Of a stretch of 23,265 nucleotides of DNA, positions 2,787 through 18,878 are shown one piece after another. The notes under the pieces were generated by a model, which ran no database searches, had not been told where the DNA came from, and was given only the letters and a program-made list of their open reading frames with translations. The translations under genes and the position numbers were made by a program. The stretch's first letter is position 1. Every line of letters starts with the position of its first letter. The stretch covers positions 1 to 23,265 of IMG/VR virus record IMGVR_UViG_3300035204_000589; one strand, 5' to 3'. Origin of the DNA: a virus.

Positions 2787-5153
2787 GTGCCCAAGATCCC
2801 CACAGCGCAGACGCAGACCGGGCGAATCCCCTTCGCGATAACGGCTGACCCTGAAGGTATCGTGAGGCGAGGTCGTCAGCAGGCCGGACTTCTGGAGCAG
2901 GGCGGTCAGTTGGCGTTTGCGTTTGCCGAGCGGCGTGCCAAGCAGATCAGCCGCGAGCAGCGAGATACGGCCTATGCCAAGTATGCCGTTAAGGTGTCCG
3001 AACTCGCTCAGGAGGTCGGGAAGCAAGACGACATCCACGGGATGGGCGAGACCTTCGACCAGAAGAGTCAAGACGCGATCGATGAGATCGCTAAGCCGCT
3101 TAATCGCCGCGCTAGAGAGGAGTTCATCTCCGATGCTACTCGGCTGCGCGCTTCTCAAGGCGCGTCGGTTCGCGGCGCTCAGTACAAGCGCGAGTCCGCA
3201 GCGGGCATCACGACGCTGAACGAGAATCTGGAGTCGGTCACCGAGGCCATTCTCGTCTCGCCGAACGACATAGCTACGCAGAACCTCTTGATTCTTGCGC
3301 GGCAGTTCATTCGCGATAACGAGTGGGTGCTCGAAGAGGACAAGGAAGCCGGAATCGAACGATTCTTGGAGGGGATCGACAAGCGCAGGGTGCATCGCCT
3401 GTTCAACCTCGCCGAATCGTCAGACGATCAGGCCGAGGCGCTTGAGCACTTGGCGACCGTCGAGGAATTGCTTGATTCGCCGGATGGGCTCCAGAATCTC
3501 TCGGATGAAGACAAGACCGGCCTGCGTGATTCGCTCAACAGGCGTCGTAACAACGCTCTGCGCGAGTTTTTCACTGACGAGGTCAGGGCACAAGCCAAGA
3601 GCATTCGTCACCTTGAGACGATGTCCGACGCTGACGCAGTTGACGCAACGACAAGCGAACTCCTAGATCTCGGCGTCATCAGTGCCGACAAGGCGATTCA
3701 GTGGGACTCGGCCACTGACGCATTCAGGGACAAGCAGGTATCGGCACACAGCGGAGCGGAGTCGGTCAAGCTGGCGGTGCGAACTGGCACGTCCCTGTCG
3801 GAGCATGACCGCAAGGATGTTGACGCTTACGATGAGGAAATCTTCGTTCCGTCTCTGGAAGGGCTAACGCCCGAGGAGCAGCGTGAGCGCACCGTTGAGG
3901 TGTACGGTGCCGTCGATGTCATACCGACGCGCATCGCCCGTGGTCTCGCTCGGGCTGCCAATAGTGATTCTCCGGTGCTGCTAGCAATGGCCGCGCAGGA
4001 CTTCATTGCGTTACGAGAAGCGTCTCCGCAGGGCATGAAGGGCGCCGAGTCGGAAATCGGCAAGCCGGGAGTCGTCACGCTAGAGAACGTCTCCGAGTCG
4101 CTGCTGATGGGCGATACCGCAGAGAACGCCCTGGAGCGCGAGCGCGAACGCGAGAAGCTGTACGCAAGCGAGTTGGAAGGTCGCCGCATCAAGTACGACT
4201 CTCTTCAGGAAGACAAAACCGACGCAGAGTTCTTGGTCAGCAAAGAGGCTCGCTTCGCCTTGGAGCGCGAAGGGCTGTTCAACGACGTTGATGTTCAGGA
4301 GTTCCCGCCAGGGTTCCAGGTGATGTTCGCGAAAGCCGTTTGGAGAAATTACGCGATCGACCCGAACATCGACCGTGCCAGGGACCGTGGCTTGCGCGAC
4401 GTTGGGCGCGTGTGGGGCATGACGAATGTTGGTGGCGTTGAGCGGCTGATGCGCGCAGCTCCCGAGAAGATGTACCAGATGCCTTCCGAGGCCATTGCTC
4501 ACCAGTTGGATGTGTACCTCGAAGCAGCGGGTGCCGAGATTCCCGACGGTATGCGACCGATTCTGGTAAGCGATAACGACACGATGACGTTCATTGACCC
4601 TCAGACTGGAGAGCTTGCCCCAGAGTATGCCGTCGTCTTGATGAGCGAAGACGAGTTCGGGCACGTTTCGCAAGGGCAACTGCTTGACGAGAACATGGAG
4701 CAGTATCGCTTTGCCCCCGACCCTCATCACTACGAACGAGCGAAGCGCCGTGCGGATGAATATATGGCCAGGGGCGACAGGGAATCGCGACTCGCCCGCA
4801 ACGAGAAGATCAAGGACTTCATGGAGCACATGGAGCAGCGTGCCCATGATGTCGTACATCAAAAGCGGGAGCCACTCCACAAGGAGTACACACCGGAAGA
4901 GCGCGCTGCGAACCGGGCTGCTATGGCGCAAGACATCAAGGAGATAGTAACGATTGATGAGCGAGAGCGGGCCGCAGTGGAAAATGTGATTTTCGGCGCT
5001 GTCGAGCCGCTGGTCGATGCGACGGTCGGCACAGCAACGGTGCTGCGGAAGCTCCCGCGCCAGATGCACGAAGCGGCCATTCACGCGGCTAAGAATATGA
5101 ACGGTTTTGGCAGGCGACACTTGCGCCGCCCGGAAGAGGCAAGTGCCGAGTAA
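2787..5153 (+). CDS. Large helical internal virion protein, T7 gp15-like
   Basis: The product is 788 residues. It starts at GTG 2787, four bases after the previous stop, with AAGGGGAG about 8 bases upstream. It has no membrane segment. Most of the protein is charged and helical, with long Glu/Arg/Lys/Gln runs including an 'EREREREK' stretch near residue 450. The early part resembles the N-terminal core of podovirus internal proteins (QRDTAYAKYAVKVSELAQE). T7 gp15 (747 residues) has similar length, composition and position and forms, with gp16, the periplasmic tunnel through which DNA enters the cell. I see no lysozyme or protease motif. The last 11 bases overlap the next gene. The assignment rests on order, size and composition rather than on a signature motif. 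Confidence 0.68.
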   Translation: MPKIPTAQTQTGRIPFAITADPEGIVRRGRQQAGLLEQGGQLAFAFAERRAKQISREQRDTAYAKYAVKVSELAQEVGKQDDIHGMGETFDQKSQDAIDEIAKPLNRRAREEFISDATRLRASQGASVRGAQYKRESAAGITTLNENLESVTEAILVSPNDIATQNLLILARQFIRDNEWVLEEDKEAGIERFLEGIDKRRVHRLFNLAESSDDQAEALEHLATVEELLDSPDGLQNLSDEDKTGLRDSLNRRRNNALREFFTDEVRAQAKSIRHLETMSDADAVDATTSELLDLGVISADKAIQWDSATDAFRDKQVSAHSGAESVKLAVRTGTSLSEHDRKDVDAYDEEIFVPSLEGLTPEEQRERTVEVYGAVDVIPTRIARGLARAANSDSPVLLAMAAQDFIALREASPQGMKGAESEIGKPGVVTLENVSESLLMGDTAENALEREREREKLYASELEGRRIKYDSLQEDKTDAEFLVSKEARFALEREGLFNDVDVQEFPPGFQVMFAKAVWRNYAIDPNIDRARDRGLRDVGRVWGMTNVGGVERLMRAAPEKMYQMPSEAIAHQLDVYLEAAGAEIPDGMRPILVSDNDTMTFIDPQTGELAPEYAVVLMSEDEFGHVSQGQLLDENMEQYRFAPDPHHYERAKRRADEYMARGDRESRLARNEKIKDFMEHMEQRAHDVVHQKREPLHKEYTPEERAANRAAMAQDIKEIVTIDERERAAVENVIFGAVEPLVDATVGTATVLRKLPRQMHEAAIHAAKNMNGFGRRHLRRPEEASAE

Positions 5154-8100
5154 CCGCGAGCTACGCAAAGCGCCGTTTGCGCTGAATCCGGCTGAACCAC
5201 AGCAGATGCAGGCGCAGGAGCGCCCGTCGTTCGGCGATACAGCCTCGGCTGCATGGCGACTCGAAAACACCATGTTCGCGGCGTATGACATGATGCGCGA
5301 GCAGGTTGCATCGCGTCACGATGCGCCCGCGCCCGAAGGATACGACCCGTTCGACGGCATCAGGGGGACGATCTTCGAGGAGTACCCAGAGGCGCTAATC
5401 GACGTTGACTCACCCGCCGAGAAGACCAGACGCGAACTGAAGCTGATGCGCGAGCTGAAGGACAGGGAGACGCTGGCGGCAAGCGGGGCGTTGGGAATCG
5501 CGGCGGCTTTCGGGAGTGCTGTGCTCGATCCGCTCATCCTTGTGCCTGTAGGCGGGCAGATCAAGGCAGTGCGGGGAGCCGCTGTTGCCGGGAAGGTTGC
5601 TGCTGCTGGGAATACTGCCCGCGCTGGGCAGCTTGCTCGTATCGCTGCTACCGGCAGCGTTCCTGCGGAACTCGTATCACCGTTAACGGCGGGCATCGTG
5701 ACGGCCCGCGCCGCGATTGTTGGCGAGACGGCTGTGGAGTCGTTGCTCCATGCCTCGCAAGAGACGCGGACGTTCGGGGAGTCGGCACTCAACATCACTG
5801 CCGCGACGTTCCTTGGCGGCTTGCTCGGCAGTGGCATTGGCAAGCTATCAAAGAAGTCCCGTGAAAAGGCGCTTGCACAGATCGAGCACGACCTCGTCGA
5901 GATCGGCGGCGGTACGTCCGAGTTCGATGTCCCAAAGCTCACGCAGCAAGATCTTGTGCAGCCGACAGACGGGTCTATGAGCGGGGCTGAGATCAAGCTG
6001 AGGCGGGCTCTTGGCCCTATTCACGCCGAGAAGATCTTCACAGCCAAGGGCGTCCAAGTGATGTCCGCTCCTTACGTTCGCGTGATGGGCAGGAGCCCTT
6101 CGATCAACTCCAAGAAAACCATGATGGATCTCGCGGACCCGTCTGGATACGTTGATACCAGTGGCGTCCAGCTTCGGTCGTCTGCGGAGTCTGAGGTCAT
6201 CCAGCGCGTTGACGGAACGCTTAGCCAACTCCTTCCCGAAGGTGACAGGCTCTATATCGACTACAGGCTGCGTATGGCAAGCGAGGGCGGGAAAGCCGCA
6301 AGGGCCGTTAAGGCGGGTGGTCGGCCTCGACGCGCAATGATCCAGGCTGCCGACAAGCTGACCGGCCAAGCGAAAAAGGAAGGCGTCCTCGAATACCATG
6401 AGTTCATGGAGTTGGCTGGTAGTGCGAGCCGATCGGAAAACAGTGGCATCGCTGAAGTGGACGAACTTGGGCGCATTTGGGACGAGAAGGTTTACAAGCC
6501 AATCTGGGAAGAACTGACGACCCATAAGGACTTCGAGGGGTTTCTCGATCCAGAGGTTGCGAAGCTCGATCCTGCTGGCGGTCGCCGATACTTGAGGCGC
6601 GTCTACAACCGAGAAAAGATGATCGCCAACGAGGGGCGATTCAAGGAGAAGGTGAAGCTCTGGCTGCGCGGAGAGATCGACGACGACGAGATCGACGCGA
6701 TACTGAAGAGGGCTGGGCTTGAGAAGGCAACGCGCGGCGTAGAGGTAGAGGGAGTTGCCCCGATGGCTCGCCATACGTTCACGCCTGAGCAGTCTGCCGC
6801 GATTGAGAAGGCGCTAGACCTTCACGCTTACAACATCTTCAAGCACCTGACGGACTCTCCGCTCAAGCGAGTGTCGTATTCGCGCGAAACGATCGGCAAG
6901 AGCAGCCCTTTCAAGTCACGGGCTCTCACGTTTCCCGATGAGTTTGTCGAGGAGTTTTTGGAGCAGGACATTCAGGTTCTTGGCGAGCAATACCTTCGGA
7001 CCATCGCACCGGACATGGCCATGTACCGGCGGTTCAAGGATGTCTCGCTAGACGAGAGGTTGAGCCTTATCTCGAAGGAATACGCCGAACTGCGAGTAGG
7101 CGTTAGCCCGAAAGAGGCGGCGCGGCTTCACAAGCAAGAATTGGAGGACGTGAAGCTGATTAGCGGCGTTGCCATGTTGCTGCGCGGGACTTACGCGGTT
7201 CCCCCAATGCACCCTACGGTTACGGCTGCGCGCACGATTCGGGGAATGAACTACCTGAGTATGTTGGGTGGCGTGACGATCAACGCCATACCGGACCTCG
7301 GGATGCTGGTCTTGCGTAACGGCTTTCTCAGGACGTTCCGTGTCGGCTTCGCCCCGCTCGTTACGCACATGAAGGCGGCGAAGCTGTCGAAGGTCGAACT
7401 CCGCAAGATGGGTGCGGCGGTGGAACTCGTTCTCGACTCACGCTCACGCATCATGGCGGACATCGGCGACGAGTTTGTTCAGAACAAGACCCAGAAGCTA
7501 GTCAGTAACGTCTCGCGCAACTTCTCACTCATCAACCTACAGGCGCAGTGGAACTCTGGTCTAAAGGGAATTTCTGGGATGCTGGAGATGACCAACGCGA
7601 TCGAAGAGATTCTTGCGGAGGGCACGGGCAAGGCGACGGCGAAGGGCATTGACCGGCTGGAGTTCGCGCGGCTGGGGCCTGAAATGCGAGCGTCCATACG
7701 CGAGCAGTTGCTCAAGGCTGACGGGTTCAAGTCGGACGGGCCGCTGAAGTGGTCGAACACCGAGGCATGGGACGATCCAGTCGCAGCGTCGGAGTTCAGT
7801 TCGGCGATCCGGCTCCTCGTAGACAATACCATCCTCACTCCAGGGATCGCATCGGCTCCGCTTGAGCTGTCCACTGAAACTGGTCGCACGCTGTTACAAT
7901 TCCAGCGGTTCCAGTTCGGCGCGACCAATACGATTCTGCTGTCAGCCCTCCAGCAATCGGACCTGCGTGCTGTGCAGGGGATCACAACGATGATCGCGCT
8001 TGGGTCTGTGGTTGAACTCATCAAGAACCGCCTGAACGACCGGCCTCAGCCTGAGACGATGGAAGACCTTGTTCAAGCTGGCATCGACCGCTCAGGCGTC

Positions 8101-8421
8101 GTGGGCATCTACGGGAACGTCTACAACTCTCTCGCGCGTGCAACAGGTAGCGACACGCTCTCCAGCCGCTACGCGGCACGCAACCTCATGTCGTCGCTGA
8201 TGGGGCCTTCGGTCGGCACGCTCGAAAGCGCGAGCAGGCTAGCGATCCAAGGGCGTCGTATGGAATTCTCGGAGAGCGACCTCAACACTTTGCGTCGGCT
8301 GCTCCCGTACAATCAAGTGCCGTATCTCCTGGGGATATTCGACAAGCTGGAAGAAGGCACCGCAGACGCACTCAACTTACCCAAGAAGCGCAAGCGTGGG
8401 CGCAGCAGGAAGGTTCTGTAA
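5143..8421 (+). CDS. Very large internal virion protein, T7 gp16-like position
   Basis: The product is 1092 residues. I chose GTG 5143 because GGAAGAGG lies directly upstream and it overlaps the previous gene by only 11 bases; an ATG at 5107 is possible. A long Gly/Ala-rich hydrophobic region at about residues 110-240 contains segments such as LAASGALGIAAAFGSAVL and ITAATFLGGLLGSGIG, consistent with membrane insertion during ejection. The rest is helical, with a second hydrophobic patch near residue 710 (MLGGVTINAIPDLGMLVL). T7 gp16 (1318 residues) is the largest ejection protein and carries an N-terminal lytic transglycosylase. I do not see that domain's catalytic pattern here, so cell-wall opening may be done by another protein. 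The C-terminus is strongly basic (KKRKRGRSRK). Its stop overlaps the fibre gene start by one base. Confidence 0.68.
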   Translation: MPSNRELRKAPFALNPAEPQQMQAQERPSFGDTASAAWRLENTMFAAYDMMREQVASRHDAPAPEGYDPFDGIRGTIFEEYPEALIDVDSPAEKTRRELKLMRELKDRETLAASGALGIAAAFGSAVLDPLILVPVGGQIKAVRGAAVAGKVAAAGNTARAGQLARIAATGSVPAELVSPLTAGIVTARAAIVGETAVESLLHASQETRTFGESALNITAATFLGGLLGSGIGKLSKKSREKALAQIEHDLVEIGGGTSEFDVPKLTQQDLVQPTDGSMSGAEIKLRRALGPIHAEKIFTAKGVQVMSAPYVRVMGRSPSINSKKTMMDLADPSGYVDTSGVQLRSSAESEVIQRVDGTLSQLLPEGDRLYIDYRLRMASEGGKAARAVKAGGRPRRAMIQAADKLTGQAKKEGVLEYHEFMELAGSASRSENSGIAEVDELGRIWDEKVYKPIWEELTTHKDFEGFLDPEVAKLDPAGGRRYLRRVYNREKMIANEGRFKEKVKLWLRGEIDDDEIDAILKRAGLEKATRGVEVEGVAPMARHTFTPEQSAAIEKALDLHAYNIFKHLTDSPLKRVSYSRETIGKSSPFKSRALTFPDEFVEEFLEQDIQVLGEQYLRTIAPDMAMYRRFKDVSLDERLSLISKEYAELRVGVSPKEAARLHKQELEDVKLISGVAMLLRGTYAVPPMHPTVTAARTIRGMNYLSMLGGVTINAIPDLGMLVLRNGFLRTFRVGFAPLVTHMKAAKLSKVELRKMGAAVELVLDSRSRIMADIGDEFVQNKTQKLVSNVSRNFSLINLQAQWNSGLKGISGMLEMTNAIEEILAEGTGKATAKGIDRLEFARLGPEMRASIREQLLKADGFKSDGPLKWSNTEAWDDPVAASEFSSAIRLLVDNTILTPGIASAPLELSTETGRTLLQFQRFQFGATNTILLSALQQSDLRAVQGITTMIALGSVVELIKNRLNDRPQPETMEDLVQAGIDRSGVVGIYGNVYNSLARATGSDTLSSRYAARNLMSSLMGPSVGTLESASRLAIQGRRMEFSESDLNTLRRLLPYNQVPYLLGIFDKLEEGTADALNLPKKRKRGRSRKVL

Positions 8422-9314
8422 TGACCATCTCATCCACAACCAAATCGGCACGTTACACAGGGGACGGCACAAGCTCGCCACTCTCGACTGTGTTCCGGTG
8501 CTTCGCATCATCCGAGATCGAGGTCTGGAAGCTCACTCGCGCAACAGGCGTGTGGGAGCAGTTGACCGAAGACACGGAGTACAGCGTCACGCTGACGGTG
8601 CCCGATGGCACGCAGGCTTCCGCAGTCGGCTCTGTTGTTCCGATTTCTCCAGGCACCAACTTCCCAGCATCGGTCGATTGGGAGATCCGCCGCGCGCTGC
8701 CGCTGACGCAGACGCTCGACCTCAACGAAGGGGACGCGCTTCCCGCGATCTCCGTCGAAGGCGCTTTCGATCGTCAGGCGATGCACGCGCACCAGCTCAA
8801 CAAGTGGGTGCTACTCGCAGAGGCATCTGGCGCGGCGCAGTCGGAGCTGAATGTCCGCGCCGTGGATTGGACAAAGACGTATGACTCGGTGCGGCTTGAG
8901 CTGTTCGGCGTATATCCAAGCACTGCGGCTCGCATCCGAGTGAAGATCGACGACAACTCCACCGGCACGCCCGTTGGGTCTGGGCTGTTCAGCTCATGGA
9001 TCACGTTGTTTGGGCATGATGCGTCCGTGAATGGCGAACGCACCTCGACATGGGCCACAGATACGGGAATTCTGGTCGGTGCGAGCCTTGTTGAAGGCGT
9101 GAATGGGAGCCTCACGATTCACAGCAGAGACGAGAAACTTTACGCAACGGGTCAGTACGTCTACACGGACTCTGTGGAATCTTCGGTCTGCGTGGCAACG
9201 ATGGGCGGCACGGCCACGGGCTCATACACCCATCACGGCTTTTATGTCGATGGAAGCGGCAGCGGCACCACAGTAACCGGGCTTGTCCGACTATGGGGAA
9301 TGCCCAAGGCATAA
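8421..9314 (+). CDS. Tail fibre protein with T7 gp17-type N-terminus
   Basis: The product is 297 residues. ATG 8421 overlaps the previous stop, with AGGAAGG upstream. Residues 1-135 match the T7 tail-fibre N-terminal domain pattern that docks on the tail: 'YTGDGTSSPLSTVFRCF', 'Y.VTL.VPDGTQ', 'IRRALPLTQTLDLNEGDALP' and then 'FDRQAMHAHQLN'. Residues 148-297 are a separate beta-rich domain ending in 'GLVRLWGM'. The protein is short for a fibre: there is no long triple-helical shaft, so the receptor-binding tip follows almost directly after the anchor. The C-terminal domain recurs in the secreted protein encoded at 9733-10593. It is expected to be the host-recognition protein, possibly with a further partner protein bound to it. 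Confidence 0.85.
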   Translation: MTISSTTKSARYTGDGTSSPLSTVFRCFASSEIEVWKLTRATGVWEQLTEDTEYSVTLTVPDGTQASAVGSVVPISPGTNFPASVDWEIRRALPLTQTLDLNEGDALPAISVEGAFDRQAMHAHQLNKWVLLAEASGAAQSELNVRAVDWTKTYDSVRLELFGVYPSTAARIRVKIDDNSTGTPVGSGLFSSWITLFGHDASVNGERTSTWATDTGILVGASLVEGVNGSLTIHSRDEKLYATGQYVYTDSVESSVCVATMGGTATGSYTHHGFYVDGSGSGTTVTGLVRLWGMPKA

Positions 9315-9325
9315 GGAGAGAGACA

Positions 9326-9730
9326 ATGCGAAACTTTATTGCGCTGGTGGCTTTGGGCTTGCTCATGGCCGCATCAAGTGTGCAGGCAGCGGATTGGTAT
9401 CAGGGGCCTGGCGAGACGGGGCGCGTCGTAACAACGCCGAGCCCAGGTCAGACGATCTACATTTCGACTGCCGGTGCTCCATCGTCGTTGGTGAGCGTGC
9501 GGCGCTGTCAACGCTGGACGATCACGGTGTTTGGCTCTGGCGCGAGCGTAATGCCGCAAGCGTGCTGGTCGAATGCTGATTGTGCAACGTCTGGTACGAA
9601 CGAGGACCTGATCGCCACTGCGCTCACGGGTGATACGACGAACAGGTTCATGTCTAGCATCGTTCCGTTCCAGTGGATTCGGCTGGATACGTCCAGCGTC
9701 GTGAACGTACAACTCGTATGTGGGTGGTAG
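9326..9730 (+). CDS. Small secreted protein of unknown function
   Basis: The product is 134 residues. ATG 9326 is preceded by a strong AAGGAGAG site at 9313-9320. Residues 1-21 form a clear Sec signal peptide (MRNFIALVALGLLMAASSVQA), with cleavage expected after VQA. The mature part is about 113 residues, beta-rich, with four cysteines that could form disulfides in the periplasm or outside the cell. It ends in 'WIRLDTSSVVNVQLVCGW', which resembles strands of small phage fibre or decoration domains. I do not recognise a family. It lies between the tail fibre and the fibre-like secreted protein, so a role at the cell surface or bound to the fibre is possible. A signal peptide is unusual for a virion protein assembled in the cytoplasm. 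Confidence 0.72.
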   Translation: MRNFIALVALGLLMAASSVQAADWYQGPGETGRVVTTPSPGQTIYISTAGAPSSLVSVRRCQRWTITVFGSGASVMPQACWSNADCATSGTNEDLIATALTGDTTNRFMSSIVPFQWIRLDTSSVVNVQLVCGW

Positions 9731-9732
9731 CC

Positions 9733-10593
9733 ATGAGATACCTTGCTCTTGCATCACTCGTTAGTTTGACCTTGGCGATGGCTGGTCCTGCAATTGCCGG
9801 GTCTACCGGCACAGTAATCGGCGGTGGTGGTGGTGGTGGCGATGTCGCGAACCCGATGACCTCGGACCTCGACGCAGGCAACAACGACATCACGAACGTG
9901 GGCGACGTATCGGCTGATTCGTTTACGAGCAGCGCGGACGATGGCTCGCGTGAGATGTCGCTGTCGGAGAACACTTCATACACATGCAGTGCGTCTACCG
10001 ACGAGTTCCGGCTTTACAACGAGGGCGACGTTCTCAAATACTGCGACGAAGGTGGTGAGTCGAATGTTGTGAGCCGCGTCCTGCTGGATACTGAGACAAC
10101 GACATCTGCTGTGAATGACATCACTGTTTCCTACGCAGACTGGCAGACAGAATACAGCGTGCTGGAACTGGAACTCATCGGCGTATGGTGTACTACCGAC
10201 GGCGAGGGGATGCGCGTCCGGTACGACAATAACGGCGTGGAAACAGCAGGCGATGCATACGTTGGCAAGACGTTTCATGATCCCGGCGTAGCCACCGAGA
10301 CCCTCGTAGAAGGGGCCGCACTGCGTACCGACACCACAGAGGAGATCGACGCAGCCGCAGCCTCTGGCGTTACCGGAACCGTCGTAGTGCGCTCACTTGG
10401 TACGGCTACCAATTCTGCCTTCAGGATGGTCGCCGACTGGGCCTATCTTGATTCTGTCGACGAGGCTATTACTGCCCAGCGCCTTTACGTCTCTGGCGAC
10501 GGCATGACATCGTTCGATGGCTTCTATCTGGATTGCACTGCCTCTAGCACGATCAACGGAACGGCGCGGATCTGGGGTTTGCAGACGTGGTAA
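9733..10593 (+). CDS. Secreted fibre-like protein sharing the tail fibre's C-terminal domain
   Basis: The product is 286 residues. The ATG at 9733 follows the previous stop by two bases; an ATG at 9718 is the alternative. Residues 1-22 are a typical Sec signal peptide (MRYLALASLVSLTLAMAGPA then IAG). A seven-glycine linker follows, then a 'NPMTSDLDAGNNDITNVGDV' segment that is common in phage fibre shafts. Residues 134-286 align by eye with residues 148-297 of the tail fibre at 8421-9314. Shared features are DW...Y followed by LEL.GV, 'GVTGTVVVRS' against 'GVNGSLTIHS', 'YLDSV' against 'YTDSV', 'GFYLD' against 'GFYVD', and the ends 'ARIWGL' against 'VRLWGM'. It looks like a fibre tip exported from the cell. 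It could be a decoy, a receptor blocker or an adhesin. A start downstream of the signal peptide, giving a cytoplasmic virion protein, is the alternative. Confidence 0.72.
   Translation: MRYLALASLVSLTLAMAGPAIAGSTGTVIGGGGGGGDVANPMTSDLDAGNNDITNVGDVSADSFTSSADDGSREMSLSENTSYTCSASTDEFRLYNEGDVLKYCDEGGESNVVSRVLLDTETTTSAVNDITVSYADWQTEYSVLELELIGVWCTTDGEGMRVRYDNNGVETAGDAYVGKTFHDPGVATETLVEGAALRTDTTEEIDAAAASGVTGTVVVRSLGTATNSAFRMVADWAYLDSVDEAITAQRLYVSGDGMTSFDGFYLDCTASSTINGTARIWGLQTW
9823..9840 (+). repeat. GGT triplet repeat coding a polyglycine linker
   Basis: Five GGT codons and one GGC in a row, next to another GGC, encode seven glycines directly after the signal peptide region of the fibre-like secreted protein. 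Changes in copy number would keep the frame and only alter linker length. Confidence 0.85.
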
Positions 10594-12266
10594 AGCGGCT
10601 CATAGCCGTCGCGTTACTGCTGTTCGCGCTACCCGCCTCAGCGGAAATTATCGTTGTCCATATCGGAGACGATGGTACGCGGGGGCGCATCTCTGCGTAT
10701 CGGGTCGCTGGAATAGACGTAGTCGCTGACTCGGGCGAGCACCTCACCACCACGAACCTCGATGCGATGGCTTCCAGCGGAATCCGATTCGATCATTTCC
10801 GATCCGAACCTCGCTGCTCGCAGACCCGCGCTGCATTGTTCACGGGCGGGAGTCCGCGCAGGCCGTACAACCTGACATCGCACAACACAGGACCGAATAA
10901 CGATACCAGCGTAACGATTGACCATGACCACCCATACAACCTGGTCCCGCAACTCAAGGCCGCAGGTTACAGCGTGGGTTTGGTCGGGAAGTTCCATTTA
11001 ACTAGCGAAGTTGACCTCGACAACAATCCGCACGACTACTTGATGGAGATGGGATTCGACTGGTTCGATGCGATCATCCCAGGGAACCCAAGCCAAGACC
11101 TCGGGCAAACGCATCAGCACACGTCGAACAATTGCTTCGGGCATAACCACTGGTGGGGCGTCGGCGAGGGCGGTGCGAAAACCCTCTACGGCGACGGCAG
11201 TGGCGGCAGTAGCGGCTACACGAACCTCGTCATCAAGGACTCGGTGGTCGCGAAGATCGGTACGATCGACTCGGCGTCGGAGAAGTGGGTGCTATTCGTC
11301 GGCTGGAGCGCGCCACATGGTCCGTGGGATGCAGGGTTGGCTGCTAACACATGCGACTACGACGACGATGGAACGCCGGAAGCGGCTCGCAATGACCGGC
11401 CCCCCGGAAGCGCAGCAACCAACGACATTGCCGTGTATAACGACGCTTTCGAGAAGATGGACGAATACATTGGCGACGTGAACGCGACTCTCGATCTCGC
11501 TGCTGGTGGCGATGCGGACACATCGGTCTTCTTCTTCGACAACGGTGCGCCGAGCGCAGGAGCAACGACGGAGTGCTACAACAGCAGGGGGATGAAGGGC
11601 ACGCCCTACCCATGCGGCACCGAGCCTGGGCTGTTGGTTCAGGGCGGCGCGAGCCCGCAGAACGGCATCGTCACGTCGCTGCTGACGGTGCCCGACATCT
11701 CGGCGACGTTGGTTGATCTCGCTGGCGGCACCTATCGCGGGCGTCCTGACGGCATCAGTTTCGCCGACTGCATCGACGGAACGACTGCACCGGGTAGCTG
11801 CCCAGAGCTGCGCGACGTGGCGTGCTCCACCCAGTGGGCTCCGATGGGTGGCAACACGGACGGCACAATCGCTCGCCAACCACTCGCTGCCGACGCAGCG
11901 GGGGAGTGGGACGACTGGAGCCCCGGCTGCGTCACTCGCAGTTGCGGAAGCAACGAGTACCTGCTTGCACGCGCTCACGATGTGGACGGCACGGACCCGA
12001 CGTTGTTCTGCGAGCACCTATACGAACGCACGTCTACCAGCGATTACCTCTCAACCTCGCCACTACTGGAGACGGACGGCGAGGACACGGGAATCCCGGT
12101 TACGTGTACCAGCGGCGCAGACAACCTGAACGATGGGAAGATCGCGCTCAGTGCGGCCCCGTCGAGCGATGCGGAGTGCGCCCTAAAGCTCTTGCAGCCC
12201 GCGCTTGACGGGATGAGCCACAACAACGGAGCGCACACGCCGCTGCTGCGTGGAGGCAGTTTCTGA
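10587..12266 (+). CDS. Secreted type I sulfatase (alkaline-phosphatase fold)
   Basis: The product is 559 residues, full family length. GTG 10587 overlaps the end of the previous gene. Residues 1-19 form a Sec signal peptide ending LPASA. Family motifs occur in order. They are the metal-binding Asp pair in 'VVHIGDDG' (residues 28-29), the active-site signature 'CSQTRAALFTG' with Cys77 as the residue normally oxidised to formylglycine, 'VGKFHL' (Lys135, His137), 'SAPHGPW' (His244), 'FFFDNG' (Asp318, Asn319) and Lys337 in 'RGMKGTPY', followed by 'PDISATLVDLAG'. Such enzymes hydrolyse sulfate esters, often on polysaccharides. Activity would need a host maturation enzyme, since none is in the window. 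The signature has Gln in place of the usual Pro/Ala at the third position. The substrate is unknown. Sulfated capsule, exopolysaccharide or lipopolysaccharide of the host is an inference. A sulfatase in a phage late operon is unusual. Confidence 0.87.
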   Translation: MVKRLIAVALLLFALPASAEIIVVHIGDDGTRGRISAYRVAGIDVVADSGEHLTTTNLDAMASSGIRFDHFRSEPRCSQTRAALFTGGSPRRPYNLTSHNTGPNNDTSVTIDHDHPYNLVPQLKAAGYSVGLVGKFHLTSEVDLDNNPHDYLMEMGFDWFDAIIPGNPSQDLGQTHQHTSNNCFGHNHWWGVGEGGAKTLYGDGSGGSSGYTNLVIKDSVVAKIGTIDSASEKWVLFVGWSAPHGPWDAGLAANTCDYDDDGTPEAARNDRPPGSAATNDIAVYNDAFEKMDEYIGDVNATLDLAAGGDADTSVFFFDNGAPSAGATTECYNSRGMKGTPYPCGTEPGLLVQGGASPQNGIVTSLLTVPDISATLVDLAGGTYRGRPDGISFADCIDGTTAPGSCPELRDVACSTQWAPMGGNTDGTIARQPLAADAAGEWDDWSPGCVTRSCGSNEYLLARAHDVDGTDPTLFCEHLYERTSTSDYLSTSPLLETDGEDTGIPVTCTSGADNLNDGKIALSAAPSSDAECALKLLQPALDGMSHNNGAHTPLLRGGSF

Positions 12267-12418
12267 TGACTCGCCGCGAACTCTTCCTGCTTTGGCTCGC
12301 ACTGCTCGTTATCGGCTTGTGTCTTGCGGTAGCGGGTGCGGGGCGCGGCAATTCTTTTTTCAAAGGAGAACAGCATGGAATCGAAAAGCAAGTGGGAGAG
12401 CAAGACGCTCTGGGCTAA
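12266..12418 (+). CDS. Single-helix small membrane protein overlapping the holin gene
   Basis: The product is 50 residues. ATG 12266 overlaps the sulfatase stop as TGATG, and GGAGG lies about 9 bases upstream. The N-terminal part is 'MTRRELFLLWLALLVIGLCL', one transmembrane helix with positive charges before it. A polar tail follows, whose codons overlap the holin start in another frame. It could be a second holin, an antiholin or a spanin part. No family is recognised. The tail may be partly incidental because it lies over the holin ribosome-binding site. Confidence 0.5.
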   Translation: MTRRELFLLWLALLVIGLCLAVAGAGRGNSFFKGEQHGIEKQVGEQDALG

Positions 12419-12560
12419 CGCGATTGGTGGAGCGGCCCTGCTGGGGACAGCCGCAGGATTCGATGTGTTCGAGTCTGGGCAACAGGAGGCCCTGGTAGGC
12501 GGCATCATGGTCATCATTAACATCATCTTGCGCTTCTTGACGAAGACCGCACTCGCGTAA
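12375..12560 (+). CDS. Holin-like small membrane protein
   Basis: The product is 61 residues. ATG 12375 is preceded by an AAAGGAG site (12362-12368). After a short charged start (MESKSKWESKTLWAN) there are two hydrophobic stretches, about residues 13-31 (with many Gly/Ala) and 40-56 (LVGGIMVIINIILRF). A short basic end follows. This is the layout of small two-helix phage holins with a 'KT.W.N....' N-terminus and a 'VNIILRF.TK' C-terminus, which form pores in the inner membrane at lysis. The position after the tail genes and among other small membrane proteins fits a lysis cassette. No endolysin gene is next to it; the nearest candidate peptidase is at 22637-22942. Confidence 0.72.
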   Translation: MESKSKWESKTLWANAIGGAALLGTAAGFDVFESGQQEALVGGIMVIINIILRFLTKTALA

Positions 12561-12562: not shown

Positions 12563-12856
12563 GTGGCTGGCGGCGACGAGCACAAATTCCTTGGCTGGAT
12601 GGGCGACGCATGGCCAGGGCTCGCGGCGTTCGTGGCTTTCTGCGTGGGGCGAGGTGATATGAATCGGCGGGTCGCGCACAACGAAAAGGAAGTGTCTCGC
12701 GTCGAAGGGGATCTCCACAAGTCGCGCGACCACGATGCTGAGTTTCGTCGCCAGACACGGGCAAAGCTCGACGAGATCGAGGGCTCTGTTTCGGAGATCA
12801 AGGCCGATGTCGCAGTGCTGCTCGATCGCGTGCCACAGCGCAATGATCCAGCCTGA
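12563..12856 (+). CDS. Membrane-anchored coiled-coil protein
   Basis: The product is 97 residues. The GTG at 12563 follows the holin stop by two bases but has no good ribosome-binding site; ATG 12599 is an alternative start. There is one hydrophobic segment (about residues 17-30, WPGLAAFVAFCVG). A long charged helix with heptad-like spacing follows (EKEVSRVEGDLHKSRD, AKLDEIEGSVSEIKADVAVL). A membrane helix plus a coiled coil downstream of a holin resembles phage inner-membrane spanin subunits or the small holin-associated proteins found in many phages. Topology and function are inferred. The stop overlaps the next start as TGATG. Confidence 0.55.
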   Translation: MAGGDEHKFLGWMGDAWPGLAAFVAFCVGRGDMNRRVAHNEKEVSRVEGDLHKSRDHDAEFRRQTRAKLDEIEGSVSEIKADVAVLLDRVPQRNDPA

Positions 12857-13230
12857 TGCCAGAGAAGGTGGTCTACTGGGCACCGCCCGACGACTTGCGG
12901 GTCGAGGTCCGGTTCTACGTCACCGATTACGACGCGAACCCGATGAGATGGAACGCGATCACGCCGTTCGATGTAGGCGAGACTCCGCTACCCCCGGCGT
13001 GCTTGGACCCGGTGCCTCCACTATTCTGCGAGACTCACGGCACGTGGAACTTCGGAACCATCGTGGTGCCCGAAGAACCGTATGCGTTTCACGCGGTACG
13101 CGAGGATCAACATACCGGCTGGACGAGCCTGCAAAGCAACGTGGTACTGGTGCCTGAGCCTGCAACAACGCTTGCGCTGCTGTTCGGTTGCCTGCTCGCT
13201 TACGGTTTCAAACAAAGGAGATCTACATGA
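12856..13230 (+). CDS. Protein with a PEP-CTERM-like C-terminal sorting signal
   Basis: The product is 124 residues. ATG 12856 overlaps the previous stop. Residues 1-95 look like a single beta-sandwich-type domain with two cysteines and no enzyme motif. The C-terminus reads 'VPEPATTLALLFGCLLAYGF' followed by KQRRST: a Val-Pro-Glu-Pro motif at residues 99-102, a hydrophobic helix, then a basic tail. This is the layout of the PEP-CTERM signal that exosortase recognises in bacteria with complex extracellular polymers. The protein has no N-terminal signal peptide that I can see, which PEP-CTERM proteins normally need. The tail may therefore act only as a membrane anchor, or export may occur by another route. 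It sits between membrane-protein genes of the lysis region. Confidence 0.62.
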   Translation: MPEKVVYWAPPDDLRVEVRFYVTDYDANPMRWNAITPFDVGETPLPPACLDPVPPLFCETHGTWNFGTIVVPEEPYAFHAVREDQHTGWTSLQSNVVLVPEPATTLALLFGCLLAYGFKQRRST

Positions 13231-13538
13231 AGCTCAGAACTCGACTCTACGATGCGGGGATGCTGTTCCTCGTTTGCTTGCTTTGCGTATTCCTGGGCAC
13301 GGCGTGCGCGTGGAGCGTGGGCAAAAAAGGCATTCAGGCTTCTGCTGGGATTGCCCGCGCCGACGCGGTAAATGAAGTCGAGTCTGAGGGATTCTCCGAG
13401 GGCGGCGTGGAGGTCGCGAGCGAGACGGTCAGGATACTCGGGGACTTGGCTATCGCCGTGCTTCGGATGCCGTTCATGGCCCTACAGGGGGCCGCTGACG
13501 GTGCGCTTCAGCCGCTCGACGAGCGCATCGACGAGTGA
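13227..13538 (+). CDS. Small membrane-anchored or lipoprotein-like protein
   Basis: The product is 103 residues. ATG 13227 has AAAGGAG at 13214-13220 and overlaps the previous stop as ATGA. Residues 11-28 are hydrophobic (GMLFLVCLLCVFLGTACA). The end 'LGTAC' is a poor but possible lipobox with Cys27 as the lipidated residue. The rest is acidic and helical with a second weakly hydrophobic stretch (LGDLAIAVLRMPFMAL). A lipoprotein next to a helix plus coiled-coil protein would fit an outer/inner spanin pair, but the sequence is not Pro-rich as many outer spanins are. No family is recognised. Confidence 0.55.
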   Translation: MKLRTRLYDAGMLFLVCLLCVFLGTACAWSVGKKGIQASAGIARADAVNEVESEGFSEGGVEVASETVRILGDLAIAVLRMPFMALQGAADGALQPLDERIDE

Positions 13539-13705
13539 CGCAGGCGCAGCAGATCCTCGCTGGGTTGGCTGCTGCCGCTGCGTTGGTGCAGGGGATCGAC
13601 AATGTGGTGCGTGCGCTCAGCCCGCCGCAGGTGGACGGGCCTTCGTGCGCGGCGACGATCGAGGCTTTGAGCGTTTCGCTTTCGATGTGTGCTCGGTGCG
13701 ACTAG
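13535..13705 (+). CDS. Short ORF at the end of the rightward late operon
   Basis: The product is 56 residues. GTG 13535 overlaps the previous stop as GTGA, the coupling used throughout this window, but no clear ribosome-binding site is present. It has an Ala-rich hydrophobic stretch (ILAGLAAAAALVQGI) and three cysteines near the C-terminus. Its last 89 bases overlap the leftward gene at 13617-13832 on the other strand. It may be the last late gene or simply an open frame. Confidence 0.35.
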   Translation: MTQAQQILAGLAAAAALVQGIDNVVRALSPPQVDGPSCAATIEALSVSLSMCARCD

Positions 13706-13832
13706 CGTCACCATCTGCGTAGTACGGGCAGGTCGACCACTCTTCGATCGGCGGGCACGGGCACTCGAAGACGTGCATCTCATGGTCCGTACACCAGAAC
13801 TCGTCGCACGCGCTACACGGCACCCAGGTCAC
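13617..13832 (-). CDS. Small cysteine-rich zinc-ribbon-like phage protein
   Basis: The product is 71 residues. GTG at 13832 overlaps the stop of the upstream gene as GTGA. The first half carries 'VPCSACDEFWCTDHEMHVFE', then CPCPPIEEW and CPYY: many Cys and His residues in pairs, consistent with binding one or two zinc ions. Small phage proteins with the same 'C..C..FWC..H' and 'CPCPPIEEW' pattern are common in non-structural gene clusters and have no known function. The last 25 or so residues are Lys/Arg/Ser/Pro-rich and probably disordered. The 3' end runs into the convergent rightward ORF. A start further upstream would only read the neighbour in another frame. Confidence 0.55.
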   Translation of the reverse strand: MTWVPCSACDEFWCTDHEMHVFECPCPPIEEWSTCPYYADGDASRTEHTSKAKRSKPRSSPRTKARPPAAG

Positions 13833-14092
13833 TTCAGCATCTTCTCGTTCTGCACCACTCGATTCCGCATGATCTGAAGCTCTTCCCTTAGCTTCTCGTT
13901 TTCCTTTGCGAGTTCGCCGTGGGTGCTCATGGCGAGGGCTTTCCAGTGTTTCACTTCGTCCACTAACTCGCTGATATCGGCGACCGCATCGTTGTTGCCA
14001 CATGAGCAGGGGGATAGGTCGCACCCGACAGCATGGCGTCGTAGAACCAAGTGCTGAAGGGCTCGTAGGCCGCCTGCATATTCTCCGCTCAC
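13829..14092 (-). CDS. Small coiled-coil protein, unknown function
   Basis: The product is 87 residues. I chose GTG 14092 because a GGAGGGGGAG site lies just upstream and the start overlaps the previous stop as GTGA. An ATG at 14182 would only add residues read out of frame from the neighbour. The N-terminus has 'GCDLSPCSCGN', a possible metal site. The C-terminal half is a charged helix with heptad spacing (ELAKENEKLREELQIMRNRV). It belongs to the run of small leftward genes that carry Cys clusters plus coiled coils. Function unknown. Confidence 0.55.
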   Translation of the reverse strand: MSGEYAGGLRALQHLVLRRHAVGCDLSPCSCGNNDAVADISELVDEVKHWKALAMSTHGELAKENEKLREELQIMRNRVVQNEKMLK

Positions 14093-15384: not shown

Positions 15385-15772
15385 TGGCTCGCGCCTCCAG
15401 TCGCCGCCGCAGATGCTCCACTTCCGCCTCCAGCTTTCCCCGCACGAATGCTGCCGTGGCGAGTTGGTTGACGAGGGCGGCGTAGTCACTCGCTGCACCA
15501 TCGACGCACACGCGAAGCTGTTGCAGCCATGCGAGGTCGGCGGTCTCGCCTGCGGGTTGCTGCCCGGCCTTGATAGCCTTGCCTTCCGCCTCGATCCATT
15601 CGTAGATCGCGGCGAATGCGGTGGGCTGACTGCTCTCGATGTGCGGCTCCACGTAGCCCGCTTCGAGTTCGGAGATGCGCTCCCGCACTGCGTCGAGGGT
15701 GGCAATAGCCTCGTCGTAGGCGTCGAGGGCGCTCTGGAACCAGGCGTCGAGGGTTTCTAGGGGTTCGCTCAT
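15377..15772 (-). CDS. Helical protein of unknown function
   Basis: The product is 131 residues. ATG 15772 is preceded by GCAGGAGGCAGC, the best ribosome-binding site in the area. The protein is almost all helix: 'MSEPLETLDAWFQSALDAYD', then 'ATLDAVRERISELEAG', a short middle section with one Trp pair, and a C-terminal 'GKLEAEVEHLRRRLEAR' coiled coil. No catalytic motif is visible. The LDA/LDE repeats resemble those of the gene downstream, so the two may have arisen by duplication. Its stop overlaps the next gene's GTG start region. Confidence 0.58.
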   Translation of the reverse strand: MSEPLETLDAWFQSALDAYDEAIATLDAVRERISELEAGYVEPHIESSQPTAFAAIYEWIEAEGKAIKAGQQPAGETADLAWLQQLRVCVDGAASDYAALVNQLATAAFVRGKLEAEVEHLRRRLEARASD

Positions 15773-16071
15773 GCTGCCTCCTGCCCAGCTCGAATCCGCC
15801 GAATCCGCTTGCGGGTCTTTCCCGGTGGTGTACCGGGCCGCATGTCGCCGACCTGTTCGTAGCGACCGGATTGCTCCAGCGCGTCCATCCACCGATAGGC
15901 GGTGCGGCAGCGGACAGACCTGCTCTTGGGTATCGGCAGGCCGAGTTCGCCCCGCGCCTCATCGAGCACGGCACTCACCTGTTTCCAGTCGAGCCCCCGC
16001 TCGCCTGCTGCGTTGACGGCGTCAACCAGGAGAATGGCGACAGGTGCGATAGCGTGGCGGCGGTCGCTCAT
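15769..16071 (-). CDS. Small basic protein, possible winged-helix DNA-binding fold
   Basis: The product is 100 residues. ATG 16071 overlaps the upstream stop as ATGA, with AAGGCGG about 10 bases upstream. A first helix (IAPVAILLVDAVNAA) and 'GLDWKQVSAVLDEARGELG' are followed by 'SRSVRCRTAYRWMDALEQSG', which has the spacing of a winged-helix recognition helix. The tail is strongly basic (KTRKRIRRIR). This suggests a DNA-binding protein, but the fold is a guess from pattern. It lies directly after the AAA ATPase gene, so it may work with that recombination or replication protein. Confidence 0.5.
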   Translation of the reverse strand: MSDRRHAIAPVAILLVDAVNAAGERGLDWKQVSAVLDEARGELGLPIPKSRSVRCRTAYRWMDALEQSGRYEQVGDMRPGTPPGKTRKRIRRIRAGQEAA

Positions 16072-17039
16072 GCCAATGCCGCCTTCTTCGCCGTCGCCAT
16101 CTCGCGCAACTTCGCCCGCTCCTCGTCCGTCCACGGATGCGATTTCCAGAGATCCATCACGGCATTGAGTCCGGCTGCCCCGCTAGCCCCTGAGATCCCG
16201 TCTAAGGCGGCTTTCAGGTCATCCGAGGGCTGAGTGGGCTGTTCGGCCTGCGCCTCTCCTGAGGGCTCCTGCGCGCCCTGAGAGCCACCCGCTGCCCACT
16301 TGGCGATCAGCTTGCCCGTCTCCTCGGAGAGTGGCTGCCCTGGGGGGAAACAGTCCCGTAGGTTGTTCGGGAGTTTGAGGATTGCGCGCTCCGCTTTCTC
16401 TGCCGGGTTCCATTCGGGGACGCCACCGGAATTCGGGGGCAGCAGGCAGGAGACCACCATCTCGTAGATGAACTCTTCGCCGCCGATCGGCTGCCAACCG
16501 AGTTGGAGCGGTTGCTTGCCGGGCACGGGCTTCGTCTTCTCTTTGGCGCGGAAGCAGAAGACTCCGTTCACTCCGAGTTGTAGCACCGTGTCGATGAGCT
16601 TCTGGCGATCTCGCTTCGGGCGAATCCAGGCCGCGAATTTTACGCGCTCGCGCTTCTTCATGTCGTTGCCCGCCATGCGGATCATCTCGTTTTCCTGATA
16701 CTCCAAGAAGCCGCCTTCGCCAGTATGCTCGTGAGTCATTGAGTCGATGACGAGGATCCTCGCTCCCTGCTTCACGGAGTATTCGATTGCCGCCTTGTAG
16801 TCGAGCGATGAAAACGGCGGCATCATGTCGATGTGCTTGAACTTAAACTCGTCGGCGTAGTGGAGTGCTCGACGTGCTTCGGTGTCTATCACGTAGATGT
16901 CGCCGCCGACCGCTTGTTGCATTCCGGTGGCGAGCCTGAGTGCCGAGTAGGTCTTGCCTGAGCCTGACGGCCCAACGATCCCAGCGAGCATCGGCACCCG
17001 CTCTCGCTTCGCTTCTTCGTGGCTGAATGTTCGGGTCAT
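16068..17039 (-). CDS. AAA/RecA-fold ATPase, Sak4-like recombination protein
   Basis: The product is 323 residues. ATG 17039 has an AAGGAGG site; the longer start is not supported. Walker A is 'GPSGSGKT' at residues 23-30 and Walker B is 'ILVIDS' at 95-100. A 'YVIDTEARRALHY' segment lies between them. The C-terminal part, from about residue 250, is a Gln/Pro/Gly-rich linker and a helical end (LNAVMDLWKSHPWTDEERAK). This is the layout of phage AAA_24-type ATPases, a group that includes Sak4-like single-strand annealing or RecA-like recombinases. The PD-(D/E)XK nuclease gene two places upstream fits a two-part recombination module. A role as packaging or replication ATPase cannot be excluded. 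Confidence 0.75.
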   Translation of the reverse strand: MTRTFSHEEAKRERVPMLAGIVGPSGSGKTYSALRLATGMQQAVGGDIYVIDTEARRALHYADEFKFKHIDMMPPFSSLDYKAAIEYSVKQGARILVIDSMTHEHTGEGGFLEYQENEMIRMAGNDMKKRERVKFAAWIRPKRDRQKLIDTVLQLGVNGVFCFRAKEKTKPVPGKQPLQLGWQPIGGEEFIYEMVVSCLLPPNSGGVPEWNPAEKAERAILKLPNNLRDCFPPGQPLSEETGKLIAKWAAGGSQGAQEPSGEAQAEQPTQPSDDLKAALDGISGASGAAGLNAVMDLWKSHPWTDEERAKLREMATAKKAALA

Positions 17040-17320
17040 TCGTAATCCTCCTTGTCGCACCCTGACGGGCGATTCCACTCACCTATCTTGTGGAAGAACG
17101 CGTCCTCGATCTCCTCCCGGCACGACTCGTCAACAAGCAGCCGGACCTCTTCTTGGGCCGAGTAATGGGCAACTACAATCTCCCAACGCGATACGCCACT
17201 ATCGAGCGAGGACACCTGCACAAGCGCGACAACGTAGTCAAGGTTAAGCGTCACCTCCTTGTCGGCTGCCGTGCGAATGGTAATCATCGACCCTGCTCGC
17301 CTGCCCTCTTTGTTCGCCAT
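17036..17320 (-). CDS. Small protein of unknown function
   Basis: The product is 94 residues. ATG 17320 overlaps the nuclease stop by one base, with GGAGATGGGA upstream; a second ATG 33 bases later is possible. The first part is 'MITIRTAADKEVTLNLDYVV', a strand-rich region, then an acidic helical end (DESCREEIEDAFFHKIGEW). No motif is recognised. Its place between a nuclease and a recombination ATPase suggests an accessory role in DNA metabolism, by context only. Confidence 0.52.
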   Translation of the reverse strand: MANKEGRRAGSMITIRTAADKEVTLNLDYVVALVQVSSLDSGVSRWEIVVAHYSAQEEVRLLVDESCREEIEDAFFHKIGEWNRPSGCDKEDYE

Positions 17321-18135
17321 TATCCCATCTCCTCCATCTCCAATTCCTGAGCCATCATCCAACCGGGCGCGTGCACGTCCACCGTCCCGCTGACCGGCCC
17401 AGGCCAAAAGTCGCGCTCCGTTCCCTGCTTCAAGCACCGCGCCCAGATGTCGATTGAGCGTTGCCACCTGAGTTCTGAGAGCTGGCGGAACTCACCGTCA
17501 AGCACCACCGGCACCACCACATGCGGCTCCACCGTCTGCACGAAGACGAAGCGCATGGAGCAGCGTTCGATGTCGGCGTTCTCATGCTGCGCGACTGCGT
17601 GTCTGTACGCAGCGTCCTGAAGCAGCGCGTGCGAGTTCGCGATCTCTCTCGCGGCCCGATCCGGTGTGTACGCCTGCGCCGAGGTCTTCAAGTCGTCAAC
17701 GTACAGCTCGGAACGATGGTCGACGACCCCCGAGCAAAGCACCTCGGTCCCGTCGCTTGCGCGTTCACTCCACTCGAACCGCTCCTCGACATTGCCGTCA
17801 AGTACGACGCCGACGTTGCCCATCTCCTCGCGGATACGCTCGGCTCCCTTTCGGAAGCGTTGCCACTTGGCGGCGATCATCGGCGTTTTGCCGTCTGCGA
17901 TGGCCTGGTCGCGGAACTCGCGTGCTTCCTTCGTGCGGAAACTATCAGCCTCGACGAGCACTACGTCGCCCATGTCGCCCGTGATGGCTGCGTGCCATAG
18001 CCTTCCCTCTGTCTGCGCGTCGGTGGACGGCGGCTTCATGTTGCCGAGCAGGCGATGCGCTGCCCATGCTGAGCGAGGGGATTCCGTTGTGAGCCTGTGG
18101 GCGATCGAGGGTGAGAGGCGGGGTGTTTCAGGCAT
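17320..18135 (-). CDS. PD-(D/E)XK nuclease, RecB/Cas4-like exonuclease
   Basis: The product is 271 residues. ATG 18135 has GGAGAT about 10 bases upstream and overlaps the previous gene by 8 bases. Motifs of the RecB-type nuclease core appear in order: 'SPSIAHRL' at the start, His48 in 'TEGRLWHAAI', Asp139 in 'SGVVDHRSELYVDDLKT' with the Asp148-Leu-Lys150 catalytic pair, then 'QDAAYRHAV' (the Q...Y motif, Gln173 and Tyr177). Such enzymes degrade DNA ends in a metal-dependent way and in phages often supply single strands for annealing proteins. The nearby Sak4-like ATPase fits that. The Cas4-type Fe-S cysteines are not evident. Confidence 0.78.
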   Translation of the reverse strand: MPETPRLSPSIAHRLTTESPRSAWAAHRLLGNMKPPSTDAQTEGRLWHAAITGDMGDVVLVEADSFRTKEAREFRDQAIADGKTPMIAAKWQRFRKGAERIREEMGNVGVVLDGNVEERFEWSERASDGTEVLCSGVVDHRSELYVDDLKTSAQAYTPDRAAREIANSHALLQDAAYRHAVAQHENADIERCSMRFVFVQTVEPHVVVPVVLDGEFRQLSELRWQRSIDIWARCLKQGTERDFWPGPVSGTVDVHAPGWMMAQELEMEEMG

Positions 18136-18325
18136 CGTCGTCGATCTCCAGAACGAGGCATTGCACAATGCAGAGCATGTTCGACTCCATGTCACCGACG
18201 CAGGCCGGTGAGCCGAACAACCTCCACCCGCTACGCAGTAGGGCATTCACCTCGCTGTCGTGAAACTCTTCGCAATTCGGCTTCGCGTTATCCATCCACG
18301 TAGTCACGGTTTTCACACGCTGCAT
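18128..18325 (-). CDS. Small protein of unknown function
   Basis: The product is 65 residues. ATG 18325 overlaps the upstream stop as ATGA and has GGAGG upstream; the longer start is a shadow of the upstream gene. It contains 'NALLRSGWRLFGSPACVGD' and 'LCIVQCLVLE'. The pattern 'LL..GW.L....' with a hydrophobic strand resembles small phage proteins of the kind that end in 'VYVLGR', but I cannot name a family. The tail is acidic. Confidence 0.5.
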   Translation of the reverse strand: MQRVKTVTTWMDNAKPNCEEFHDSEVNALLRSGWRLFGSPACVGDMESNMLCIVQCLVLEIDDDA

Positions 18326-18537: not shown

Positions 18538-18656
18538 GTGGTCTCCTCGGAGTTCAGCCGGGGGTGCCTACGCAAAGCCAGCACCCGCTGTCGCCGCGTT
18601 TCCCCCCGATGCGTTCCTTCGTAAACGCACGAGCACGGCGAACCCCCGGCCTTCAC
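18534..18656 (-). CDS. Possible short basic ORF at the start of the leftward operon
   Basis: The product is 40 residues. GTG 18656 has no clear ribosome-binding site, but the stop overlaps the next ATG as ATGA. It is Arg-rich, with 'EGTHRGETRRQRVLALRRHP' in the middle and two Cys near the N-terminus. It may be real or may be an untranslated leader. I leave it as a weak candidate. Confidence 0.28.
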   Translation of the reverse strand: MKAGGSPCSCVYEGTHRGETRRQRVLALRRHPRLNSEETT

Positions 18657-18662
18657 CCCCGT

Positions 18663-18749
18663 TTAGCGCGTGTGGAAGTCGATGACGGCAGCGGCCAAGT
18701 AGCCGAACGCGAAGCCGCCGAGGAATCGGGTGTAGAGGTAGAAGATCAT
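18663..18749 (-). CDS. 28-residue membrane micro-protein at the head of the leftward operon
   Basis: The product is 28 residues: MIFYLYTRFLGGFAFGYLAA, then AVIDFHTR. ATG 18749 is preceded by AAGGAGC at the right distance. It forms one hydrophobic helix with Gly-rich faces. It is the first gene downstream of the divergent control region, so it would be made early. Small one-helix phage proteins of this kind often affect host membrane processes, but no function can be assigned here. Confidence 0.48.
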   Translation of the reverse strand: MIFYLYTRFLGGFAFGYLAAAVIDFHTR

Positions 18750-18878
18750 GTCGCTGCTCCTTCGTCGGTCGTTGCCGACAGGGGCAGAATACAGGCAGCG
18801 CCTCACACCGCAAGCCTTCTTAGCAAAATAATTCTAGCCGCCCTTGCGTTACACCTCGGGTTGCGTCAGGCTTGCCGC
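18750..18878. promoter_or_regulatory. Divergent control region between the leftward and rightward early operons
   Basis: This 129-base gap is the only clear divergent gap in the window. It lies between the micro-protein gene (-) and the Cro-like gene (+). A weak leftward promoter candidate reads TTGCGG (18808-18813 complement), a 16-base spacer and TATTCT (18786-18791 complement). An AT-rich patch (18821-18836) stands out in GC-rich DNA and could be an operator or promoter for the rightward operon. TTGCGT occurs twice as a direct repeat at 18844 and 18861. The exact promoters cannot be proved by eye. Confidence 0.5.

Follow-up and report, generated by a model that had tools for sequence, protein, structure and literature searches.

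A phage late-operon gene for an S1-like sulfatase with a putative formylglycine motif, and its relatives in other phages

Genomic Context of the Sulfatase Gene

The IMG/VR virus record IMGVR_UViG_3300035204_000589 is a linear fragment of 23,265 bp, and the window (the whole stretch of DNA that was analyzed) is the entire record. A complete open reading frame with a GTG start, at positions 10587-12266 of the plus strand, encodes a 559 aa S1-like sulfatase. Tail, internal virion and tail fiber genes lie upstream of it and a holin-like gene (a weak match) lies downstream, in agreement with an earlier reading made from the sequence alone (the sequence-only reading), which had placed the gene in a phage late operon. 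The features of this region are as follows:

2-8421, plus strand: tail protein and internal virion proteins, the late operon context (phrog_376, 5e-122; phrog_418; phrog_342, 8.8e-63)
8421-9314, plus strand: tail fiber protein (phrog_13893 tail protein, 5.7e-11), without a signal peptide by the signal rule
9293-9730, plus strand: small protein with a signal-peptide-like N terminus (simple rule), first of a putatively exported run; counterpart at 12835-13314 of contig L002, 36% identity
9673-10593, plus strand: fiber-like protein with a signal-peptide-like N terminus and a C-terminal domain in common with the tail fiber; overlaps the sulfatase start
10587-12266, plus strand: S1-like sulfatase, 559 aa (Pfam, fold and full active site; see below)
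10587-10643, plus strand: Sec signal-peptide-like N terminus, VVKRLIAVALLLFALPASA, predicted cleavage before E (pattern of charge, hydrophobic core and AxA)
10668-10673, plus strand: D28 and D29, metal ligands (invariant in 92 sulfatases)
10815-10829, plus strand: C77-S-Q-T-R81, putative formylglycine motif with Gln at +2 (C and R invariant in the alignment)
10989-10997, plus strand: K135-x-H137, sulfate-binding residues (motif comparison)
11316-11318, plus strand: H244, catalytic histidine of an APHxP motif (motif comparison)
11538-11543, plus strand: D318 and N319, metal ligands (motif comparison)
11595-11597, plus strand: K337, active-site lysine (motif comparison)
12266-12418, plus strand: predicted membrane peptide of 50 aa; its ATG and the stop of the sulfatase gene overlap in TGATG, as read off the sequence
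12375-12560, plus strand: holin-like protein (phrog_297 holin, E 0.0022, weak)
12856-13230, plus strand: lysis-region open reading frame; PEP-CTERM sorting signal at its C terminus (TIGR02595, 23.2 bits, cutoff 16)

The fiber-like gene product directly upstream of the sulfatase and the tail fiber have a C-terminal domain in common, 25% identical over 202 aa (E 3e-14). The same gene order occurs in L002, another IMG/VR contig, in which the virion protein is 35-39% identical to the 1,104 aa protein of this record. A scan for promoters and terminators in the record returned matches at chance level only. Elsewhere in the record, a PAPS-reductase-like gene (phrog_424, 1.5e-55) lies at 21503-22273, in the early/replication region, and a repressor-like HTH gene lies at 18564-19109. 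On the minus strand, at 16068-17078 and 17320-18246, a phrog_1366 AAA ATPase and a gene resembling exonuclease VIII form a probable recombination module.

The sulfatase gene is native to the phage. Its start overlaps the stop of the preceding gene (GTGGTAA), both neighboring open reading frames are overlapped, and no break in gene overlap or composition was found at its borders. Its codon usage and the average over the remaining genes of the record correlate at r 0.947, which is among the highest values of the genes tested. Relatives of the gene are also present in independent phage contigs. For these reasons an assembly chimera or bacterial contamination, which the sequence-only reading had named as an outcome that would overturn it, is very unlikely.

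The PEP-CTERM open reading frame suggests that the host is Gram-negative and carries genes for exosortase and exopolysaccharide: in a 2006 survey, every PEP-CTERM bacterium possessed both an outer membrane and genes for EPS (PMC1569441). The product may be sorted by a host exosortase, judging from this C-terminal signal; the simple rule gave no obvious N-terminal signal for it.

Fold and Active Site

The identity of the protein as a sulfatase is well supported; its activity, substrate and timing are putative. It matches the Pfam Sulfatase family (PF00884, alkaline phosphatase superfamily) with 79.8 bits against a cutoff of 25 (E 2.8e-22). An AlphaFold2 model built on an alignment of 70 sequences, which replaced a single-sequence version with a pLDDT of 31, has a mean pLDDT of 71 and a pTM of 0.81, with most of the core at 85-95 and several loops below 50. 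This model aligns with human arylsulfatase B (a 4-sulfatase, 1FSU) over 418 residues (Z 38.9, rmsd 3.7), and with S1_19 carrageenan sulfatases at Z 38. Residues 17-555 are aligned, and these comprise both the N-terminal alpha/beta domain and the C-terminal sheet of the S1 fold. The predicted fold is silent on the substrate, because the scores of many S1 subfamilies differ by no more than a few Z units.

The ten canonical catalytic and calcium residues of type I sulfatases are all present: D28, D29, C77, R81, K135, H137, H244, D318, N319, and K337. Among these are the cysteine that is the nucleophile precursor (C77) with an arginine at +4 (R81), the calcium ligands D, D, D, N (D28, D29, D318, N319), and the K, H, H, K residues (K135, H137, H244, K337). 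The type I assignment made from the sequence alone is thus borne out by the Pfam match, the fold comparison, and motifs that are all present in order. The S1 sulfatases of SulfAtlas (1FSU; the S1_19 carrageenan enzymes 9HH2 and 6PSM; and Pedobacter PyuS, 7STT) have the same fold, including the C-terminal sheet, and are also alike in catalytic residues and in carrying a secretion signal, whereas the phage protein is 16-23% identical to them and differs in its Gln at +2 and in a cysteine-rich, divergent C-terminal part. PyuS has been described as having formylglycine and the calcium ligands D, D, D, N (PMC8746622).

The protein could instead be an inactive superfamily member, or one that is no sulfatase, acting by binding only or as a phosphoesterase. 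Its long branch and the Gln at +2 would fit this. Nevertheless, this protein and the other phage sulfatases keep all catalytic and metal residues, and a Cys in the nucleophile position argues against the Thr-based phosphotransferases of the superfamily. We therefore consider this reading, which had been raised beforehand as a possible refutation, extremely improbable, since a complete active site is not like that of an inactive member.

A Glutamine in the Formylglycine Motif

The formylglycine-generating enzyme (FGE) is described as reading CxPxR (PMC4505483), and the consensus is given as (C/S)xPxR (PMC4505483; PMC8746622). The motif of the phage protein, CSQTR, departs from the strict form (C/S)x(P/A)xR in having Gln rather than Pro or Ala at +2, and the assignment is therefore limited to S1-like, with putative maturation. 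This glutamine is a feature that the sequence-only reading did not mention. Among 85 bacterial relatives, the +2 residue is P in 81, A in three, and Q in one. It is Q in five of the 14 phage sulfatases, this one included, although these five are not independent counts, because L013 is closely related to L026 and, by eye, L118 seems near to both.

The sole bacterial CxQxR case is a plasmid-borne arylsulfatase of Rhizobium indicum (WP_138334123; L004), about 28-31% identical to the phage protein and with the same motif, CSQTRAA. It differs from the phage protein in being bacterial and in sharing its operon with an FGE gene, directly behind which it is encoded. This adjacency suggests that a CSQTR motif may be maturable. 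No FGE gene was found in this fragment or in the other sulfatase-bearing phage records, all of which are fragments; maturation would thus have to come from a host enzyme.

Predicted Export

The predicted signal peptide, VVKRLIAVALLLFALPASA, would be cleaved before E according to a simple rule, and the mature chain would then start at the first beta strand. The export proposed by the sequence-only reading is upheld to the extent that the pattern is there. By this rule, none of the virion structural genes of the record has a signal peptide, and three consecutive positives then follow (9293-9730, 9673-10593, and the sulfatase). Contig L002, from a distantly related phage, behaves likewise, with none up to the fiber and then three in a row (12835-13314, 13317-13727, and 13731-14006). 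The rule is indicative only, because it also flagged two further open reading frames of the record, 13188-13538, adjoining the lysis genes, and 15769-16134, the start of which is doubtful. Several stand-alone phage homologs have no signal peptide by the same rule.

Related Sulfatases in Other Phages

Searches of viral and genome contigs with the lone sequence gave no match, and profiles were needed. Profile scans of IMG/VR recovered at least 13 further phage sulfatases (L013, L014, L022, L023, L026, L112, L115, L116, L118, and L120-L123), ten of which Pfam confirms; a whole-record family search also confirms L013, L014, and L026. Two bacterial-type candidates of 827 aa (L024 and L025), as well as L003, were left out as possibly cellular. 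For eight records (L013, L014, L022, L026, L115, L116, L118, and L122), the phage context is given by genes for terminase, portal, major head, virion or baseplate proteins; for L023, L112, L120, L121, and L123 it comes from homology, weak tail matches or record classification. The 13 phage sulfatases of full length, about 25% identical, all retain the ten active-site residues, and the incomplete L026 lacks only the last. Retention at such divergence argues for selection on catalysis. In the tree, the phage sulfatases lie to the same side of a branch whose support is 88%, a value below threshold, and their branches are long, so that one origin or several would fit.

In some of these phages the sulfatase is part of a larger protein. 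It forms the C-terminal part of two homologous proteins of 1,727 and 1,753 aa (L122, 5022-10205, and L123, 390-5651), the former encoded directly upstream of two baseplate wedge genes. In L023 and its 69% relative L112, the sulfatase is preceded by a domain that in L023 also occurs in the product of the next gene (31%, 2e-22). The occurrence of sulfatase domains in proteins of tail and baseplate operons ties the activity to the interaction of the phage with a surface.

Searches of proteins against 50,697 phage records gave few matches, and among those inspected, which were not all of them, there was no believable phage sulfatase. A sulfatase from Campylobacter phage A11a was rejected as a phage gene on account of its enterobacterial-type neighbors, and matches in fecal "Bacteriophage sp." records were rejected as Bacteroides-like sulfatase clusters. 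The A11a sequence (MG065691.1, 80118-86969; flagged UNVERIFIED) is apparently enterobacterial chromosomal DNA with a yidJ-like sulfatase and its neighbors. Among the predicted viral structures in BFVD, no phage protein with the sulfatase fold was found, only those of giant viruses. The giant-virus sulfatases (Yasminevirus, Satyrvirus, and Tetraselmis virus 1) share the fold and are encoded in a viral genome, but these are eukaryotic viruses, not phages. The rarity that the sequence-only reading claimed for a phage sulfatase accordingly stands for the curated phage matches inspected, which are bacterial DNA, and for BFVD, and does not stand for IMG/VR with its further genes. In MW202485 and L015, the corresponding position holds an apparent GDSL/SGNH esterase, which was considered as a parallel and set aside, its Pfam support being weak (no match; E 0.016).

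Proposed Role of the Phage Sulfatase

We propose that the gene encodes a most likely active, calcium- and formylglycine-dependent phage sulfatase that would be exported late in infection and act on envelope or matrix polymers, a reading to which we give an even chance of being right. A late extracytoplasmic enzyme is favored because of the gene position and the export signals; export, maturation and metal use are putative, as they are read from motifs. The exopolysaccharide-making Gram-negative host suggested by the nearby PEP-CTERM gene would suit this proposal. The sulfatase would be made late in infection together with the products of the tail fiber and lysis genes. C77 would be turned into formylglycine by a host FGE or anSME, and the Sec pathway would export the protein. 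At or before lysis, it would take sulfate esters off the host envelope or an extracellular polymer (capsule, exopolysaccharide, or O-antigen), and the layer that holds fibers and virions would be stripped or loosened, such that progeny could leave debris and matrix without re-adsorption. In effect, this would be a receptor- or matrix-modifying enzyme. The roles named by the sequence-only reading (changed adsorption, release from matrix, and nutrient supply) are plausible. We infer the substrate, the timing and the benefit from context, and the substrate could alternatively be a small sulfate ester or phosphate ester, since superfamily members are promiscuous and PyuS has phosphatase activity (PMC8746622). 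The departure of the Gln at +2 from the FGE consensus, the lack of an FGE gene in the fragment, and a signal peptide judged by a simple rule count against this proposal.

The main alternative is that the sulfatase is bound to the virion, where it would desulfate a surface polymer at adsorption in the manner of tailspike depolymerases, with the hydrophobic N terminus serving as an attachment or assembly element. Phage tailspike or capsule depolymerases and esterase tailspikes are likewise encoded beside tail fibers and would likewise act on surface polysaccharide, although a sulfatase would take off sulfate instead of cutting the chain, has another fold, and needs maturation by the host. The gene directly follows the fiber genes and overlaps a fiber-like gene, several stand-alone homologs are without a signal peptide, the sulfatases of L023 and L112 are fused to a tail-type domain common with the next gene, and the 1,700 aa proteins of L122, encoded just before two baseplate wedge genes, and of its homolog L123 point the same way. 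For the fused relatives a virion-bound role is probably right. In the protein studied here, however, the textbook signal-peptide pattern, also seen in the two preceding genes, speaks against it, and Pfam finds the sulfatase domain only, with no recognizable virion-anchoring domain, unlike the relatives of the L023 type; for this protein we thus regard virion attachment as plausible and rather unlikely.

An auxiliary metabolic function, in which freed sulfate would feed sulfur assimilation together with the PAPS-reductase-like gene, is suggested by the presence of that gene in the same record and by a review of viral sulfur genes that names both sulfatases and PAPS genes (PMC10029852). The sulfatase and PAPS-reductase-like genes lie a long way from each other in separate operons, however, and phrog_424 was found in none of eight other sulfatase-bearing phage records (fragments). 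Sulfate, moreover, is rarely limiting within a lytic cycle, and we hold this function to be improbable. There is a still slimmer case for lysogenic conversion or biofilm modification, in which a prophage-expressed sulfatase would alter the host surface and, for example, exclude superinfecting phages. The repressor-like HTH gene, the exported neighbors, and an internal virion protein distantly related to those of phages such as TL-2011b would allow a temperate cycle, but the gene lies inside the late operon rather than as a moron expressed in lysogeny, and no integrase was seen in the fragment.

Phage Sulfatases and Sulfated Surfaces

To our knowledge, the enzymes with which phages attack surface sugars cut chains or remove acyl groups. 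The sulfatase family itself is old. In the open-access literature searched, no description was found of phages using it with intact active sites and with export signals or tail and baseplate fusions; phage sulfatases received only a passing mention there, in a review of viral sulfur genes (PMC10029852). Our broader proposal, which we consider just as apt to prove right as wrong, is that phages own diverse and unnamed sulfatases of the formylglycine type that are armed by the maturing enzyme of the host, that some of these are exported before lysis whereas others reside in tail or baseplate proteins, and that part of them use C-x-Q-x-R as the maturation site. If true, a sulfate-removing phage enzyme would imply that sulfated bacterial surface polymers are a barrier or receptor for phages, and the success of the phage would hinge on a host maturation enzyme. 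The 14 concrete genes now make the question of a sulfated-polymer barrier testable; they are also candidate sulfatases for sulfated polymers and point to a little-noticed tool for sulfated surfaces.

The phage sulfatases bear as well on PHROG 19870, a family annotated as of unknown function, which matches the protein studied here (1.4e-6), L022 (6.8e-20), and L122 (1.4e-9). As several phage sulfatases are matched, PHROG 19870 is probably a sulfatase-like family.
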